Shown here piece by piece: positions 5,087 through 13,688 of a stretch of 20,517 nucleotides of DNA. Below the pieces are notes generated by a model. It was given only the letters and a program-made list of their open reading frames with translations, searched no databases and was not told the DNA's origin. Made by a program: the position numbers and the translations under genes. The DNA is from an uncultured Victivallales bacterium. Its GTDB lineage: Bacteria; Verrucomicrobiota; Lentisphaeria; Oligosphaerales; JAFGRS01. The stretch is taken from the NCBI GenBank assembly GCA_903834675.1, contig CAILKC010000447.1, positions 1-20,517 of the forward strand, written 5' to 3'. Each line of letters begins with the position of its first letter. Positions within the stretch are counted from its first letter, which is position 1.

Positions 5087-6067
5087 ATGACGCCGCGCGA
5101 GATCATCCTGGCCAATATCGAGTACCGCTGCGACGAGCGCATCGGCATGAACTTCGACGGCGCTCGCCTGAACGACCTCACCGGCGCCGGCGTCCAATGC
5201 ACCATCCCCACCAAGAAGTGGGTCGAGGGCGCGGTCGAGTACTCCACCGACATCTGGGGCAATACCTGGTTCCGGCTGGAGGCGCTCTCCAAGGGCGGCG
5301 AGATCTTCAAACCGGTGCTGGAAGACTGGGCCGACCTCGATCGTCTGCAGCTCCCCGACCTCGACAACCCGGCCTACTACGAGGCGGCCCGCAAGGTCGG
5401 CGCCAGCGGCACCGACAAGTTCCGCATCGGCTGGCTGCCCGGCTGGCCCTTCGCCATCTGCCGCTACATGCGCAAGATGGAGATCTACTTCGTCGACCTG
5501 GTGACCGAGCGCGAGCGCATCGACATCCTCCACGACCGGGTCACCACCCTGCTCGAAGGCGTCATCGACCGCCTTGGCGAAGCGCGCCTGGATGCGGTCA
5601 TGTTCTGCGAGGATCTGGGTACGCAGGACCGCGTCCTGATCGGGCCGCGCATGTGGCTCGACATCTTCCGGCCGCTCTACGAACGCCTCACCAGCCGGGC
5701 CCACGCCCACGGCATGAAGGTCATCCAGCACTCCTGCGGCTACAACTGGGAACTGGTCGATCCCCTCTGCGAGGCCGGCATCGACTGCCTGCAGTTCGAC
5801 CAGCCCGCCGTCTACGATCAGCCCGCCCTGGCCGCAAAGCTCCGGCGCCACCGCGTCGGCCTCTTCTCCCCCTGCGACATCCAGAAGGTCCTGCCCACCG
5901 GCAACCGCAGCTTCATCGAGGCCGAAACGCGCCGCCTGGTCGAGACCTTCCGCGGCGGCCTTATCGCCAAGAACTACGGCGATCTGCACGGTATCGGCGT
6001 CCAGCCCGAATGGGACCAGTGGGCCTACGAGGCCTTCGTGCAGGCGGGGGCGGCACCGGCCCGCTGA
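5087..6067 (+). CDS. Uroporphyrinogen decarboxylase-like (URO-D/MtaA superfamily) protein
   Basis: The 326-residue protein starts at an ATG preceded by AAAGGA (6 nt spacing). The frame is open upstream to 4700, but that part is antisense to the divergent gene. It has the URO-D-superfamily layout: an N-terminal REIILANIEYRCDERIGM segment, LDAVMFCEDLGTQ (168-180), KVIQHSCGYNWELVDPLCEAG (211-231; I quote it in part as HSCG 215-218) and a C-terminal YGDLHGIGVQPEWD. The HSCG motif is shared with corrinoid-dependent methyltransferases and with many environmental URO-D homologues that do not make haem. Because no haem genes are nearby and the neighbours concern carbohydrates, a methyltransferase-type or uncharacterised role seems more likely than HemE. 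Cytoplasmic, no signal peptide. Confidence 0.85.
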   Translation: MTPREIILANIEYRCDERIGMNFDGARLNDLTGAGVQCTIPTKKWVEGAVEYSTDIWGNTWFRLEALSKGGEIFKPVLEDWADLDRLQLPDLDNPAYYEAARKVGASGTDKFRIGWLPGWPFAICRYMRKMEIYFVDLVTERERIDILHDRVTTLLEGVIDRLGEARLDAVMFCEDLGTQDRVLIGPRMWLDIFRPLYERLTSRAHAHGMKVIQHSCGYNWELVDPLCEAGIDCLQFDQPAVYDQPALAAKLRRHRVGLFSPCDIQKVLPTGNRSFIEAETRRLVETFRGGLIAKNYGDLHGIGVQPEWDQWAYEAFVQAGAAPAR

Positions 6068-6224: not shown

Positions 6225-7091
6225 TCAACTGGCGGCGGCTGCGCCTTCGACGGCGAAGGCAATTACACGGGACTGCTCGGCGAAGGAGACCACCTCAACG
6301 CCGCCCCGGGTCAGTTCGCCGAGGATCTCGTCACAGGCCCGACGGCGGCGCGTATCGGCGGAATCGGGCTCCCGAACCACGAACAGCATACGGTCAGGCA
6401 TAGCGCGCATCGTCTGCAGTCGGTGCACCCGGCTAAGCCAGGCGTCTCCGTGGTCGCGGATCTCGGTGGGCTCGTCCTGACCCAGATTCAGCGGACGAAT
6501 GGCCCGGACTGCCCGCTGGTTCACCAGGTAGACGAAGGGCATGCGGACATGGAAGTCGTCGTTCCCCAGACGGCTTTCGCGGTAGAATCGCAGAAGGTCA
6601 TGCGAATGCAGGACTTCCTGCAGCGCTTGGCGCATCCGCGCCTCCTGGTACTCGTGCGTTAGGGCAAACTGCCTTTCCACCAGGTCGGCGTAAAGCGCGT
6701 CGAGAGTGGCCTGCGGGTCGTGGGACAGGGCCGTGCCGACTCCGCTGAGGCGGAATAGAGTCTCGCGCGGACGTGTAAGCTCCTGGAACAGGGCGCGGTG
6801 AACCTCCGGGGCGACCACCAACGGCAGATCGCCCTCGCGGCCGGCCGGCGTCAACTCGCGCCCAAGACGCTCGAGCTCCTGCACGAGACGGGCACGGCCT
6901 TCGGAGAACACCGCCGGATCGAGTTCTGGCCAGAAGTCCGTCACGCGCTTCCGGTGGCTGGTGTCCACCCGGAACAGGAACAGCCCCTCTGTGGCACAGC
7001 TCAGGACCACACCGATGTTGGCGAATTCCTCGGTTTCCGGGTAAGGCCGGAACCGGACTGCCGCATAGTTGCAGGCAACACGCGTTGTCAT
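6225..7091 (-). CDS. DUF3037 family protein
   Basis: The 288-residue protein starts CNYAAVRFRPYPETEEFANI within residues 7-26 and continues GVVLSC, the signature of the DUF3037 family (an N-terminal beta-rich domain; the C-terminal two-thirds is mostly helical). The family has no established biochemical function; members are commonly encoded directly downstream of a HipA-like kinase, which fits the remnant found upstream here. Its ATG overlaps the stop of that remnant (ATGA, 7088-7091), so translation is probably coupled. It is the last gene of the operon that begins with hsdR. Because the kinase partner is broken, its present role is unclear. The 3' end faces the UroD-like gene across 157 bp. 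Confidence 0.8.
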   Translation of the reverse strand: MTTRVACNYAAVRFRPYPETEEFANIGVVLSCATEGLFLFRVDTSHRKRVTDFWPELDPAVFSEGRARLVQELERLGRELTPAGREGDLPLVVAPEVHRALFQELTRPRETLFRLSGVGTALSHDPQATLDALYADLVERQFALTHEYQEARMRQALQEVLHSHDLLRFYRESRLGNDDFHVRMPFVYLVNQRAVRAIRPLNLGQDEPTEIRDHGDAWLSRVHRLQTMRAMPDRMLFVVREPDSADTRRRRACDEILGELTRGGVEVVSFAEQSRVIAFAVEGAAAAS

Positions 7092-7258
7092 GGCCAGTCA
7101 CCTCCCCTGGAACGCGGCGACATCCCGCGCGCGAGCCAGGCACTCACGAACCCTCTCACCCAGTACAGGCAGCCATCCTCCGCCTGACAGAGGAAGGGCT
7201 GCGTCAGCCCCTGCTCGGAGCGTCGCCATATCTGCACGATGGAGACGCTATCGGCCAT
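7088..7258 (-). pseudogene. HipA-like kinase remnant, 56 codons
   Basis: Between hsdS and DUF3037 a 56-codon frame begins with an ATG that shares a base with the hsdS stop (TAATG, 7256-7260) and ends in a TGA overlapping the DUF3037 start (ATGA). It encodes IVQIWRRSEQGLTQPFLCQA (7-26), EDGCLYWVRGFVSAWLARGM (27-46) and a short tail. The pattern of a hydrophobic start, QGLTQPFLC, DG.YWV(K/R)G and a following E/AWLA helix matches the N-terminus of HipA-family (PF20613-type) kinases that usually precede DUF3037. Full-length members are about 270 residues. The ATP-binding and catalytic loops are missing here and the segment after WVRG looks shortened. I infer an internal deletion that kept both ends. 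It may alternatively be an intact small protein. Confidence 0.6.
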
Positions 7259-8409
7259 TACAGCTCCCCGTGGAACGCCCGGGCCAAGGCGGCGGACATG
7301 AGGGTGTCGAGGGCCTCGATGGCAGCTTGGCGCGCGGCATCGGCAGCGCGGACGCGGGCTGCGAGGTCCGCAAAGCGGCGCTGGGCGTCGACGGGGGGCA
7401 CGGGAACTGGAATGGCCGCCAGCTTGCCGATCCCCAGCGTCCGGTTGCGGCCGGCAGCACCTGGCGAGGCGGCGCGGATGGCAGCCATCCCCTCGTCCGT
7501 GAGGAAGTACCGGCAGAGGAACTCCGGCGTCGCCTGCGTCCGATCAACCAGGCAGGTGATGAAGCGGTGCGAGCCGTACCGCCCTTCGTCCTCGGGCTGG
7601 ACCACGGCAATGGCGCCTTCCCAGGCAAAGACATTGCTGAGCAATAGATCGCCGGGCTCGATGTGGAAGATGCGTTTGCCGCCCAGCTCGGCGCCGAGGA
7701 TGGGGGGCTTGTGGAACGTCCCCTTGCCGAAGGACCGGATGCCGAGCTCGGGATACCACGTCTCTGGATCCACCTCGACGGCGCGGCGGACGATGGGGGC
7801 CACCTCTGAGAGCAGGCGGCGCGGTGCGCCCTTGGCCAGCTCCTCGACCTGTCGCAACAGAAGGGCTTCGCGCTCCGAAGCCGCTTCCTCGCTCAGCCGC
7901 CTCGCCTCCTCGACGCGGCGGGCAACCTGATCGAGCAAGGCCACAATGCGGCGCTGCTCGGACAGCGGCGGGAGAGGAATCGACACGTTCTGGAACTGGT
8001 GGGGCCTGACGGCCGCGTAGCCGGTGGTACCCTTTGCGCCATCGGCAAGATCACGCCCGATCAGGTTACCAGAGAATACCCAGCGTAGCCATCCGATGTC
8101 CACCTTGGCCTTGTCAGGGTCGAACAGGAAGAAATGGCTCGTGCATAGGGCGCCCTCACCTTCAGAAGGAACAACCCCGATGGCGCCCTTCTTGCCCCAT
8201 ATCTCCGACAGGATTATCTGACCCGCTCTGGCAATCTGGTGCCGCTTCATCTTCACTGAGGTACCCGCGACCGATCCCGCGGGTACGGCACCTTTACCGT
8301 AGAGACGGACGGAGAGTTTGGGATAGTCCCTATCTTCAAGACTCGTCACGTATTCGCGGTTGACCGCAAGAATGTCTCCCAGCGGCACCAATGGCCACGG
8401 CGCGCTCAT
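7258..8409 (-). CDS. hsdS: Type I restriction-modification specificity subunit HsdS
   Basis: The 383-residue subunit recognises the DNA target for the HsdM/HsdR complex. Two target recognition domains are visible: TRD1 (about 1-143) opens with [15 protein letters not shown], and TRD2 (about 195-330) has a similar architecture. They are separated by the conserved spacer [20 protein letters not shown] (144-163) and a heptad-like helix [20 protein letters not shown]. The second copy of the spacer ([20 protein letters not shown]) and helix closes the protein near residues 335-380. This two-TRD, two-helix plan is normal for HsdS and implies a bipartite target, whose sequence cannot be read from the protein. 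Its ATG overlaps the ORF6N stop (ATGA at 8406-8409), and its TAA overlaps the HipA-remnant start. Confidence 0.92.
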
Positions 8410-9026
8410 GGCTGGCCTCCGTCCCGAATGGCCGAAGTCAGCGGCTCATAGCGGTAGACGCCTGGGCTCTCCTGGACTCCGAAGCCGATGCGGCGGCGGG
8501 CTTCGTCCTCGGGCGGGGCCGTGAGTTCTCGCAGGGCCTCGAAGACGAGGCGGAACTGGGCATCGTAGCGCTGCTCCAGTTCGTCGAGTTTGAGCGCCAG
8601 GTCGGCATGCGAGGCCAGTAGCTCGCGCAGGCGGACGAAGGCGCGCATGATGGCGATGTTGACCTGTACGGCCCGCTCACTGCGCAGCACGCTGGACAGC
8701 ATGGCCACGCCCTGCTCGGTGAAGGCGTGAGGTCGGTAACGTCGGCCGCCGCGGCCCTCGTTTGAGGTCACAATTTGTGACCTCAAAGTCGCAACTTCAT
8801 CTGGCGCAAGTTGAAACATGAAATCAGCAGGGAAGCGCGAGAGATTCCGTGCCACCGCCTGATTCAGGACTTTTGGCGCTACGCCATAGAGCGCCGCCAG
8901 GTCGGAGTCGAGCATGACCTTCTGGCCGCGGATGAAAAGGATGGCGCGCGCGATACGCTCAAGCGCAACCACATCCGTATCCGGTGCTTGCGGTCCATCA
9001 GGGCTGCTGTCGGAGGCCGTTGCCAC
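8406..9026 (-). CDS. ORF6N domain DNA-binding protein
   Basis: The 206-residue protein has an ORF6N (KilA-N-related) domain at about 26-115: [20 protein letters not shown] (28-47), [20 protein letters not shown] (48-67), then [19 protein letters not shown] (102-120). The segment from about 120 to 175 ([26 protein letters not shown]) is predicted as a coiled coil, and the C-terminus is charged. These proteins came from phage regulators and are often found inside type I restriction operons, where they are presumed regulators. The start is GTG, with GGAG about 9 nt upstream. It overlaps hsdS by 4 nt and lies 46 bp after the phosphatase gene. Confidence 0.85.
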
Positions 9027-9072
9027 GCTGGTTCACTCCATCCCACTACCGTGGTTCGATCATCGCGCTTCC

Positions 9073-9597
9073 TCACACCTGGACAGGTTGCCGCCGGCCA
9101 CTGAGGTATCTGGCAAACTGCCGGACCCACTCGCGCTGCTCTGGCGTGTCCGGGACACGCGCCCCCCGCGCCGCGGCCACCGTAGCGAACGCCGCATCCG
9201 GCGCAGTACCGGCCAGCACCAGCAGGCTGGCGGTCACCAGCGCCGAGCGCCCGATGCCTTGCCGGCAGTGCACGGCCACGTGGCGGCCGGCATCGAGGGC
9301 AGTGCGTGGCCCGTCGAGCACGCGGGCGCTGGTGCCCATGGACTGTGGCACGCCGCGGTCGGCGATGGGGAACGCAACCAAGTCGATCCCGTGCTGGCGG
9401 CATGCGCGCGCCTCGCCAGCCAGATCGAGTTCGGTCGCTTCGTCGTCGGTGAGCAGCGAAACCACCGTGTGAATCCCGCTGTCTTGCCAGGCCGCGGCCT
9501 CGTCCGCGAGCCAGTCGCCGCCCCGGGGACGGAGCACGATGGACAACGGGCCAGGCCAGGGGCCAGGGATGCGGTAGGTTGCGGTTCGGGGAGACAT
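9073..9597 (-). CDS. Dual-specificity/tyrosine phosphatase-like protein
   Basis: This 174-residue cytoplasmic protein has the cysteine-phosphatase signature HCRQGIGRSA at 110-119, in which C111 is the expected nucleophile and R117 binds phosphate. The upstream loop PIADRGVP (77-84) supplies D80, in the place of the general acid. The preceding DSGIHTVVSLLTDDEATEL (39-57) fits the atypical dual-specificity or CDKN3-like group. All catalytic residues are present, so the enzyme is probably active; the substrate (phosphotyrosine, phosphoserine or a non-protein phosphate) is unknown. GGAG lies 9 nt before ATG. It sits 28 bp after hsdM and before the ORF6N gene, inside the restriction operon, which is not part of the core type I set. 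Confidence 0.85.
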   Translation of the reverse strand: MSPRTATYRIPGPWPGPLSIVLRPRGGDWLADEAAAWQDSGIHTVVSLLTDDEATELDLAGEARACRQHGIDLVAFPIADRGVPQSMGTSARVLDGPRTALDAGRHVAVHCRQGIGRSALVTASLLVLAGTAPDAAFATVAAARGARVPDTPEQREWVRQFARYLSGRRQPVQV

Positions 9598-9625
9598 GAC
9601 TCAGGTCTCCGGTTCTTTGGTCGGA

Positions 9626-11155
<1,530 letters not shown>

Positions 11156-11159
11156 CGGC

Positions 11160-13688
11160 TCAGGCGGCCTCCTCGCTATACAGGCGGCGGATCATCTCGT
11201 CCAGAGCGCGGCGGAGTTCGGGCACGCCGCCGAAGGCCTTGGCCACGCGGCGCAGGTCGCTACGGAACGGCGCCAACGTGAAGACCTGGGAATCGGCCAC
11301 TTCCAGAATGCCGCCGTAGCGGTACTTGTCGAGCAGAGCCAGGAGGACCGCCCGCGCCTCGGTATCGAAGCTCTCCAGGAACTCGCGGTGCAGGGTGAAG
11401 AGGGCATTGGCACGCTCCTCGCGACTGTGCAACTCCGCGCCGAAGCCGATGTGGGCCAGCAGATCGAAGGAATCTGCGTCAGGCCGTTGGAGGATGGCCC
11501 GGAGAATGTCCACGTGCACCATGCGGGACTCCAGCTCAGCCAGCAACGGGTCGCGGCGCCGTCGGTCGGTCCAGGCCTCCTGCAAGTCGATCATGGAATG
11601 ACAGGCCTTCAGGACCTCGGCGCGGACCTTCTTGAGATAGTCCTCGGGGGTGACCAAGGTGCCGTCGGCGTCACGCTCCTCGTACGTATCGTCCGCAACC
11701 TGCACGTCGAGGCCAGTGATCCGGATGAGCAGGTGTGGTTGCTCCTTGGCCGGCTTCAGAGAGAAGTCGATAGCATGGGGGGATGAACAGGGCTCGATGG
11801 CGACCGTCATCTGGCAGCCGAGAAAGCCATGGGCGCCAGCCGACAGAACGATGTTTCCTGTGCCTACCGCGGTGAAACGGTAGTCGCCGCCGTCGGTCGT
11901 CAGGCAGTCGGTCACCTCGTTCGGGCCGACCTGGAGGCAGACACGGGCTCCCGCGATGGGCTCCCCGGTGCCGGCGGCGCGGACGACGCCCTCGACCACC
12001 GAGGTGTACGGCGGGCCGGTCTGGGCGCCGCCGTCCCCCGGCTCCTGGGGTTTGTCCCAGTCGTCGAAGAGGCGGCTGGCATCGGTATAGTCGATGACCC
12101 GGAACCAGTACTTGCCGGTGTCCGGGCAGAGCCGCGAGCCGCGGCCCACGATCTGCTTGAAGGTGACCACAGAGCCGATGGGTTTCATGAAGACGATGTT
12201 ACGGACGCTCGGGGCGTCGACACCCGTTGTAAGGAGGTCAACCGTGGTGGCGACCACCGGCACCTGCTTCTCGGTGTCCTGGAAGCGTTCCAGAAGGGCC
12301 TTGCCCGTCGCGCCCTCCTCCGAGACGATACGCACGGCGTAGTCCGGCAACCCCAGGTCCGCGTTCAGACGGTTCAGCTCTTCGGTGACCCTGAGCGCGT
12401 GGTCCATGTCCGCGCAGAACACCATGGTCTTCTCCATGCGACCGTAGGTGCGCATGAGCTTGGCGAGGTGCTCGCAGAGCTTCCGCACGTGATCCGGCAT
12501 GGTCACGGCCTTCTCGAAGTCCGGCAGGTTATACCGGTCCCGGAGCTCAGCACCAGGAGGGACCTCGAGCTCGGCTCCGTCCTGCACTGCCGCAGCCACA
12601 TCCAGGCCGTGCTGGGTGTGATAGGTGATCCAGCGATGCACCTTGTAGGTGGCCAGGAAGCCGTCGTCGATGCCCTGCCCGAGCGAGTAGACGAAGGTCG
12701 GCTTGCCGAAGTAGCGGTAGGTGTCGATGTTCTCGGTCCGCCTGGGGGTGGCGGTCATACCCAGATGAACGGCCCCGTCGAAGTGCTTCAGGATCGCATT
12801 CCAGGTGCCAAAGCCGGACCGGTGGCATTCGTCGATCACGATGAGATCGAAGAAGTCGCGCGGATAGCGCTCGTACAGCCGGTCGCCGTGCAGGCCGGAG
12901 TACAGGGCCTGGTAGATGCTGAAGTAGACGGTCCGGTTCATCGGGGCCTGGCCCTCGGCGATCGTCTCGCGCTCCTTGCCAAAGGGCTCGAAGGTGTTGT
13001 AGGCCTGGTCACGGAGCACATTGCGGTCGGCGAGGAACAGCACGCGGGGGCGGTCGTCGCCGCCCTTGCGGTTCCAGCGGGCGTGCCAGAGCTTCCACGC
13101 GGCCTGGAAGGCGATCAGCGTCTTCCCCGTACCGGTGGCCAGGTTGATCAGGATGCGGGTTTGACCCTGGAGAATAGCCTCGATGACACCGTTGACCGCG
13201 ACCTCCTGGTAGTAGCGCGGCGTCTTGCCTCCCGCCGTGCAGTACGGCACCAAGAGCGGGTTGGCCGCTGGTGAGGCGGCCAGCGACTTCGCGGCGCACA
13301 AGCGCTGCCACAGTTCCTCCGGTGAAGGGAAGGCGACGAGCGACCGCTGGCGGTTGGTGGTAAAATCCCATTCCTCGATGCCATGGCCGTTCGTCGAGTA
13401 GGCGAAAGAGAGGCCAAGCGTCTGGGCGTAATCCTTGGCCTGCTGGAGGCCAGCCCCAGGCTCGAGGTCTTCGGCTTTAGCCTCAACCACCGCGATCGAC
13501 AGCGACTCCGCGTAGCGCAGAAGAAAGTCCGCCTTCTTGGCCTTGCGGCGCTTGTGGCCGTCCCCTACCAGCACGACCTGACCATCGGTGAAGAAGTGCT
13601 GCTCTGCGAGACGCCAGACAGGATCGCCCCAGCCGGCCTGCTTGAGGGCTGGAGTGACGTATACGCGGCATGTGTCGGCTTCGTTCAT
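11160..13688 (-). CDS. hsdR: Type I restriction endonuclease subunit HsdR with inserted beta-sandwich
   Basis: The start is placed at the ATG at 13686-13688 (MNEADTCRVYVTPALKQAGW, the usual family start); an upstream in-frame start at 13760 would add 24 atypical residues. This gives 842 residues. Domain order: PD-(D/E)XK nuclease (D54, then EAK 69-71), a SF2 helicase/translocase with Walker A ATGTGKT (184-190), DECH (286-289), GMTATPRR (310-317) and motif VI QIVGRGSRL (512-520), and a C-terminal EcoEI-like region from about 650. All key motifs are present. Between motif VI/RVIDYTDASRLFDDWDKP and the C-terminal region, residues about 563-647 form an extra domain (EGVVRAAGTGEPIAGARV, then DGGDYRFTAVGTGNIVLSAG) resembling carboxypeptidase-regulatory-like folds. 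It is the first gene of the operon and the ATP-dependent DNA cutter. Confidence 0.92.
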   Translation of the reverse strand: MNEADTCRVYVTPALKQAGWGDPVWRLAEQHFFTDGQVVLVGDGHKRRKAKKADFLLRYAESLSIAVVEAKAEDLEPGAGLQQAKDYAQTLGLSFAYSTNGHGIEEWDFTTNRQRSLVAFPSPEELWQRLCAAKSLAASPAANPLLVPYCTAGGKTPRYYQEVAVNGVIEAILQGQTRILINLATGTGKTLIAFQAAWKLWHARWNRKGGDDRPRVLFLADRNVLRDQAYNTFEPFGKERETIAEGQAPMNRTVYFSIYQALYSGLHGDRLYERYPRDFFDLIVIDECHRSGFGTWNAILKHFDGAVHLGMTATPRRTENIDTYRYFGKPTFVYSLGQGIDDGFLATYKVHRWITYHTQHGLDVAAAVQDGAELEVPPGAELRDRYNLPDFEKAVTMPDHVRKLCEHLAKLMRTYGRMEKTMVFCADMDHALRVTEELNRLNADLGLPDYAVRIVSEEGATGKALLERFQDTEKQVPVVATTVDLLTTGVDAPSVRNIVFMKPIGSVVTFKQIVGRGSRLCPDTGKYWFRVIDYTDASRLFDDWDKPQEPGDGGAQTGPPYTSVVEGVVRAAGTGEPIAGARVCLQVGPNEVTDCLTTDGGDYRFTAVGTGNIVLSAGAHGFLGCQMTVAIEPCSSPHAIDFSLKPAKEQPHLLIRITGLDVQVADDTYEERDADGTLVTPEDYLKKVRAEVLKACHSMIDLQEAWTDRRRRDPLLAELESRMVHVDILRAILQRPDADSFDLLAHIGFGAELHSREERANALFTLHREFLESFDTEARAVLLALLDKYRYGGILEVADSQVFTLAPFRSDLRRVAKAFGGVPELRRALDEMIRRLYSEEAA

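Follow-up and report, generated by a model that had tools for sequence, protein, structure and literature searches.

The 20,517-nt stretch of DNA analyzed here (contig CAILKC010000447.1, from an uncultured Victivallales bacterium; the whole stretch is hereafter called the window) contains an ordinary type I restriction operon that carries extra genes, and these passengers are partly broken. The operon lies on the minus strand from position 13688 to 6225 and consists of seven frames, which read in the 5' to 3' direction as hsdR, hsdM, a phosphatase gene, an ORF6N gene, hsdS, a 56-codon remnant of a HipA kinase gene, and a DUF3037 gene. The parts of the operon have different histories. We consider it likely that this EcoAI-family operon served as a landing platform for embedded and partly decayed defence cargo, an example of the guilt-by-embedding by which the PADLOC PDC candidates were found, according to the relevant passages of PMC12988326 and PMC10855318.

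A type I operon with a broken HipAD module

The restriction core appears to be intact. HsdR (842 aa; 11160..13688) scored 745.6 bits against NF046051, the EcoAI/FtnUII model (cut-off 550), and matched the Pfam families ResIII (134.5 bits) and EcoEI_R_C (73.3 bits), with a Walker A motif (ATGTGKT) and a DECH box present in its sequence. The N-terminal nuclease domain remained below the Pfam cut-off (HSDR_N_2, 17 bits; cut-off 25), yet the phmmer alignment of residues 1-544 with the solved R subunit (PDB 3h1t) starts at residue 1, so that the nuclease, translocase, and EcoEI C-terminal domains of this family are all represented. HsdM, an N6-adenine methylase (509 aa; 9626..11155), matched PF02384 (N6_Mtase, 196.5 bits), PF12161 (HsdM_N, 48.1 bits), and PADLOC MTase_I (457.7 bits). 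HsdS (383 aa; 7258..8409) has two target-recognition halves and matched PADLOC Specificity_I (336.2 bits) over residues 4-381, with the Pfam family PF01420 (Methylase_S) recognizing the first half only. A complete type I set had been claimed in an earlier, sequence-only reading of this DNA, and the Pfam and PADLOC profiles confirm all three genes. Judged from these motifs and domains, the HsdRMS core looks complete and may well encode a working type I system of the EcoAI family, a family that we take to correspond to the type IB label. The operon shares HsdR, HsdM, and HsdS with the EcoAI/EcoEI systems, its HsdR scoring above the EcoAI cut-off, but differs from them in the phosphatase and ORF6N genes lodged between hsdM and hsdS and in an extra immunoglobulin (Ig)-like domain within HsdR.

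The seven frames were all found at the places previously assigned to them, and reading out the junctions gave gaps of 4, 28, and 46 nt at the first three and overlaps of 4, 1, and 4 nt at the last three. The operon is therefore compact, as had been proposed. Between positions 6000 and 14400, promoter-like sites (1 vs a shuffle mean of 0.7) and terminator-like sites (2 vs a shuffle mean of 3.7) did not exceed those of shuffled sequences, so it is the spacing only that makes the proposed single transcript plausible. The GC content along the operon (0.63-0.71 in 700-base steps) falls inside the range of the window (0.61-0.72).

Behind hsdS, the operon ends in what is left of a HipA_2-DUF3037 module. 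The kinase gene remnant (56 aa; 7088..7258) matches positions 1-37 of the 246 positions of the HipA_2 profile (33 bits) and then runs into an unrelated tail; intact HipA_2 kinases beside DUF3037 have approximately 235-262 aa. Among the residues that are invariant in 13 intact HipA relatives, N124, D126, R127, N137, D151, and H152 all lie outside the retained part, and K32 is replaced by arginine, so that neither the NxDR nor the DH residues of an intact kinase are left. Eighteen codons in a second frame (7098..7154) could represent the HipA C-terminus, being in the right order and at the right distance to the stop; their score (-3.5 bits) is not significant, and they are suggestive only of an internal deletion in the kinase gene, with which such an arrangement would fit. 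The DUF3037 protein (288 aa; 6225..7091), in contrast to the kinase, is full length. It scored 80.5 bits against PF11236 (cut-off 22.6) and 40.7 bits against PDC-M66B, and it can be aligned throughout with 13 relatives, to which it is 19-38% identical. Of the kinase and DUF3037 pair described in the sequence-only reading, the DUF3037 half thus holds, and no kinase domain is left in the operon. The overlap of the remnant's stop with the DUF3037 start says little about coupling because it falls in the remnant's unrelated tail.

Passages of two papers describe what the intact module does. Defence disappeared when the HipA_2 kinase was deleted, and removal of DUF3037 proved toxic (PMC12548924, which in the same passages equates HipA_2-DUF3037 with PADLOC PDC-M66); the pair was also reported as DS-6 and renamed HipAD, and a catalytic mutant lost defence (PMC13092281, in part). 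The window resembles HipAD/DS-6/PDC-M66 in having DUF3037, the antitoxin partner, immediately preceded by what remains of the kinase gene, so that the usual gene order is kept. It differs in its broken kinase and in the placement of the module, which closes a restriction operon at its 3' end. The second, abortive-type layer that had been suggested for this locus fits the HipAD family; since the toxin is broken, the layer is probably inactive in the window copy. A comparable arrangement is the RRDM island of enteropathogenic Escherichia coli, where the DarTG2 toxin-antitoxin pair is embedded in a type I system, according to the parts of PMC12255303 that deal with it. Both loci have a toxin-antitoxin defence pair inside or beside a type I operon; in the RRDM island, however, an intact DarTG2 lies between hsdS and hsdR and is governed by the repressor RptR, whereas the window has a broken HipAD behind hsdS.

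We infer the order of acquisition and the present activity of the operon parts as follows. An ancestor would have acquired the HipA_2-DUF3037 pair behind hsdS, and the ORF6N gene and phosphatase in the space between hsdM and hsdS. Where the pair is intact, following the published model, the HipA kinase toxin would be restrained by DUF3037 and would protect against phage. The window copy would have lost most of the kinase gene and kept the antitoxin, as expected where the cell tolerates losing the toxin and the antitoxin is harmless or still useful. HsdRMS would carry out restriction and methylation in the usual way, with ORF6N and the phosphatase as probable passengers.

The retained DUF3037 could be either a relic or an immunising antitoxin. 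The latter leads to a different account of the locus, in which DUF3037 would act as a shield by neutralising HipA_2 toxins brought in by plasmids or prophages, perhaps with the phosphatase reversing the phosphorylation that these toxins cause. Consistent with such a role, DUF3037 is full length and its kinase is gone, and L193 and L197 likewise have DUF3037 but no HipA, in L197 behind hsdRMS. Viral-collection contigs often carry HipA_2 together with DUF3037, a same-strand HipA_2 gene being present in the fetched stretch of 59 of the 60 loci examined (L304-L363). Against it, the DUF3037 proteins compared here are only 19-38% identical to that of the window and may be specific to their own pairs, and an antitoxin can persist as a relic. 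We regard this account as very improbable.

Recurrence of HipA_2-DUF3037 behind restriction genes

The HipA_2-DUF3037 pair is found behind restriction genes in several other loci. L167 has the order hsdM-hsdS-HipA_2-DUF3037; in L206/L207, hsdRMS is followed by HipA_2-DUF3037 with start-stop overlaps; and in L195, a full-length MmeI gene precedes the pair, again with start-stop overlaps. Type I genes also lie upstream of the pair in L306, in L307, and on a plasmid of Pseudorhodobacter turbinis (L285), where hsdS is interrupted. Looser forms were seen in L194, with an HSDR_N protein upstream of the pair, and in a Pseudomonadota genome (L295, 8430-13583), with a four-domain MmeI-like gene approximately 0.9 kb upstream. 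L197 (1255-9304, one strand) carries hsdR-hsdM-hsdS, two unidentified open reading frames (ORFs), a sub-threshold DUF1828 ORF, and DUF3037, and is without HipA. The pair stands alone in L196, and L193 holds an orphan DUF3037. The contigs of L207 and L206 came up again in the viral collection as L304 and L305. The loci L206/L207, L306, L307, and L285 were reached by searches that started from HsdR or from the HipA of L206, and they consequently show recurrence, not frequency.

For an estimate of frequency, homologues of DUF3037 and ORF6N were collected from genomes at E <= 1e-8, and the window's HsdR, HsdM, and HsdS served as queries for type I genes in the vicinity (same strand, within 6 kb, E <= 1e-4). 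This count is fairer than an earlier panel of hidden Markov models, which had been trained partly on L167, L197, L206, and L195; it leaves out the MmeI loci L195 and L295. One Planctomycetota genome among 294 and five Verrucomicrobiota genomes among 194 had a DUF3037 homologue (together the six PVC loci), and three of these six loci had type I genes nearby (L167, L194, and L197). Compared with the loci of ORF6N (2/39) and of the phosphatase (0/80), described below, this proportion is significantly higher (Fisher p = 0.0006).

Several observations weigh against reading these data as embedding of defence cargo. Only six PVC DUF3037 loci were found. Type I genes were near DUF3037 in none of 14 Pseudomonadota loci (five anchors unseen by tblastn being counted as misses), in none of 8 plasmid loci that were read out of 20 matching plasmid records, and in none of 56 viral-collection loci, which form 18 groups at 90% identity. 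Pooling the PVC, Pseudomonadota, and plasmid loci gives 3/28, and the p value weakens to 0.048. L206/L207, L306, L307, and L285 share one HipA subfamily, 77-100% identical to the HipA of L206. The deletion in the window's HipA gene could also stem from misassembly of the metagenomic contig, and the bare relative operon described below (G218) has a short hsdS of 278 aa, so that this operon may be damaged too.

These counts bear on the simplest alternative, a chance neighbourhood in which the inserted genes, HipAD included, would have no functional tie to restriction. DUF3037 is mostly found elsewhere, as the viral-collection and plasmid loci illustrate, type I genes are seldom near ORF6N and absent near the sampled phosphatase relatives, and the G218 operon is bare of passengers, all of which favor this alternative. 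However, HipA_2-DUF3037 lies behind varied restriction genes, namely hsdMS in L167, hsdRMS in L206 and L285, and MmeI in L195 and, at a distance, in L295, and pure chance does not readily yield such a pattern together with the start-stop overlaps of L195 and L206. A chance neighbourhood is thus rather unlikely in our assessment. With half of the PVC loci positive and none of the Pseudomonadota, plasmid, or viral loci, the link between restriction and HipAD exists in some lineages and is missing in most contexts sampled.

Further searches returned nothing that extends this series. The HipA of L195, used as a scan query, found no relative, and the hsdS-HipA-DUF3037 DNA of L206 had no match in 20,395 E. 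coli records. Among the titles and abstracts that searches of open-access PubMed Central listed, none linked HipA_2-DUF3037 to restriction.

In 392 Planctomycetota genomes, with at most two candidates scored for nearly all genomes listed, full-length HsdR matches were found in G218 (71%) and G165 (49%, over residues 1-840). G218 was the only full-length match at E <= 1e-150 among 397 genomes of its class (partly shared with the 392), and the only one of nine genomes of its family with an HsdR match. In 87 Verrucomicrobiota genomes the subfamily was absent at E <= 1e-150, a negative that carries no weight alone. Of the operons found in genomes, that of G218 is the nearest relative (HsdR 71%, HsdM 79%); it has the order hsdR-hsdM-hsdS and no passengers within the 12.4 kb read. 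Its hsdM and hsdS overlap directly, and the phosphatase and ORF6N genes of the window therefore look inserted. A viral-collection contig (L204) encodes a full-length HsdR with 70% identity and is uninformative on passengers because it ends inside hsdM.

The phosphatase and ORF6N genes

The gene behind hsdM (174 aa; 9073..9597) encodes a stand-alone phosphatase of the dual-specificity or protein tyrosine type, matching PF22785 (38.1 bits) and PF05706 (31.5 bits), both above cut-off. It has a CX5R loop (HCRQGIGR), and D80, H110, C111, and R117 are invariant in 39 aligned sequences including that of the window, which makes D80 a candidate general acid. The enzyme had been described as catalytically complete, and conservation of the loop and of the putative acid is consistent with this. 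The family is large (3,467 proteins); of 120 listed members, four reach 86-93% identity and the others stay at or below 60%. Four distant matches lie on plasmids, and viral contigs scanned with the phosphatase and with the window's HsdM contained no relative of either.

We had to weigh whether restriction could be controlled by phosphorylation, with this phosphatase and the HipA-like gene acting against each other to turn HsdR or HsdM on and off. The phosphatase retains its CX5R motif and candidate general acid and lies 28 nt behind hsdM, which would suit such a role. Nevertheless, no kinase domain remains in the operon, the G218 operon has no phosphatase, and none of the 80 loci examined (the best 80 of 132 relatives in genome contigs, 53 of them with at least 3 kb on both sides) has type I genes on the same strand within 6 kb. 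The missing kinase and the lack of type I company among phosphatase relatives mean that phosphatase-kinase control of restriction is not supported, and we find it scarcely credible. The phosphatase as a regular partner of restriction was likewise rejected on the strength of the 80 loci.

A frequent neighbour of this family is a protein of approximately 82 aa with the motif DGHHR, which is no restriction gene product and also speaks against phosphorylation control. By BLAST, such an ORF lies within 3 kb in 39 of the 80 loci, and in 36 of these it precedes the phosphatase on its strand; a profile built from these 39 ORFs matches 54 of the 80 loci anywhere in the fetched DNA. In the window this profile had no significant hit (best E 1), so the phosphatase stands there without this neighbour. 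Three members tested against Pfam matched no family. The predicted structure of the DGHHR protein has a predicted local distance difference test (pLDDT) score of 88.5, and ParB N-domains rank first among its PDB matches without reaching significance (best E 0.62). Perhaps the two genes form an uncharacterised unit of a ParB-like protein and a phosphatase. The phosphatase is unremarkable for restriction, but it leads to a gene unit, as yet uncharacterised, that is found again in many loci.

The ORF6N-domain protein (206 aa, GTG start; 8406..9026) matches PF10543 (112 bits, profile positions 2-86 of 86) and the PADLOC model PDC-S05 (187.3 bits). It resembles the single-gene defence candidate PDC-S05 in matching that model; a defence role for the window's ORF6N is, however, predicted, and type I genes are seldom near the sampled ORF6N loci. 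Homologues occurred in 61 of 294 Planctomycetota genomes, where the genes are multicopy in several genomes and some have internal stops, as if mobile or decaying. The loci studied were 39 of the 40 best-scoring places, 21 of the 39 having at least 3 kb on both sides (the fetched set of 40 also held one DUF3037 place). Type I genes were nearby in two, L152, and L187 with a same-strand HsdR-like gene 1.7 kb away, and ORF6N stands directly behind hsdM in one (L152). The full hsdM-ORF6N-hsdS order in L152 is unconfirmed, because the next ORF is hsdS-like by eye and has no Pfam match. Open-access PubMed Central returned nothing on type I restriction together with ORF6N. Sharing of the extra genes by homologous loci, on which the idea of a coherent combination depended, thus fails for the phosphatase, is borderline for ORF6N, and holds for HipAD in some lineages.

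An Ig-like domain in HsdR and the wider meaning

HsdR contains a feature that the sequence-only reading had overlooked. A CarboxypepD_reg-like domain (PF13620, 34.2 bits; cut-off 32.3) occupies residues 565-626, within an Ig-like insert of approximately residues 556-650 (11739..12023), at a site that is a variable linker in most of the other aligned EcoAI-type HsdRs (24 sequences). In an AlphaFold model (mean pLDDT 75; predicted template modelling score 0.56), the insert is all-beta, with block pLDDT values of approximately 62-92. A protein database search with residues 535-680 matched 7 clusters among 671 candidates, one being the window's own protein and the six others 69-71% identical (one a fragment). 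The same insert is visible directly in the HsdRs of G218 and G165 (L122, L123). The Ig-like domain in HsdR is rare, and an HsdR in which a folded domain replaces the linker offers a natural probe of how the motor connects with the methylase core.

Outside the operon, an ADP-ribosylglycohydrolase gene flanks it, whose best organism-named relative is 72% identical and comes from a Lentisphaeria bacterium. On the plus strand at positions 2467-2981, a DUF433 gene is followed by a DUF5615 gene that matches in its first 45 residues only and then shows an apparent frame change. We take DUF433 to be the likely antitoxin and DUF5615 the likely toxin of a possible second pair in the window, in which case the antitoxin is perhaps whole and the toxin broken here too.

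Much of this locus is made of known parts: the type I operon, the HipAD pair, and the embedding of toxin-antitoxin pairs in restriction systems. What is worth following is the recurrence of HipAD with restriction genes and the Ig-like domain, not the phosphatase-kinase idea. A further-reaching proposal is that restriction operons recruit HipAD time and again as a fail-safe, whose kinase would be held in check as long as restriction works and released when a phage disables or overloads restriction, and that the window would be a decayed copy keeping an immunising DUF3037 against HipA toxins that prophages bring in, perhaps helped by the phosphatase; at present we hold this to be quite improbable. 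Should a large count bear out the linkage of restriction genes with HipAD, the fail-safe model would become directly testable, and HipAD would join DarTG2 as a toxin-antitoxin family that travels with restriction operons.

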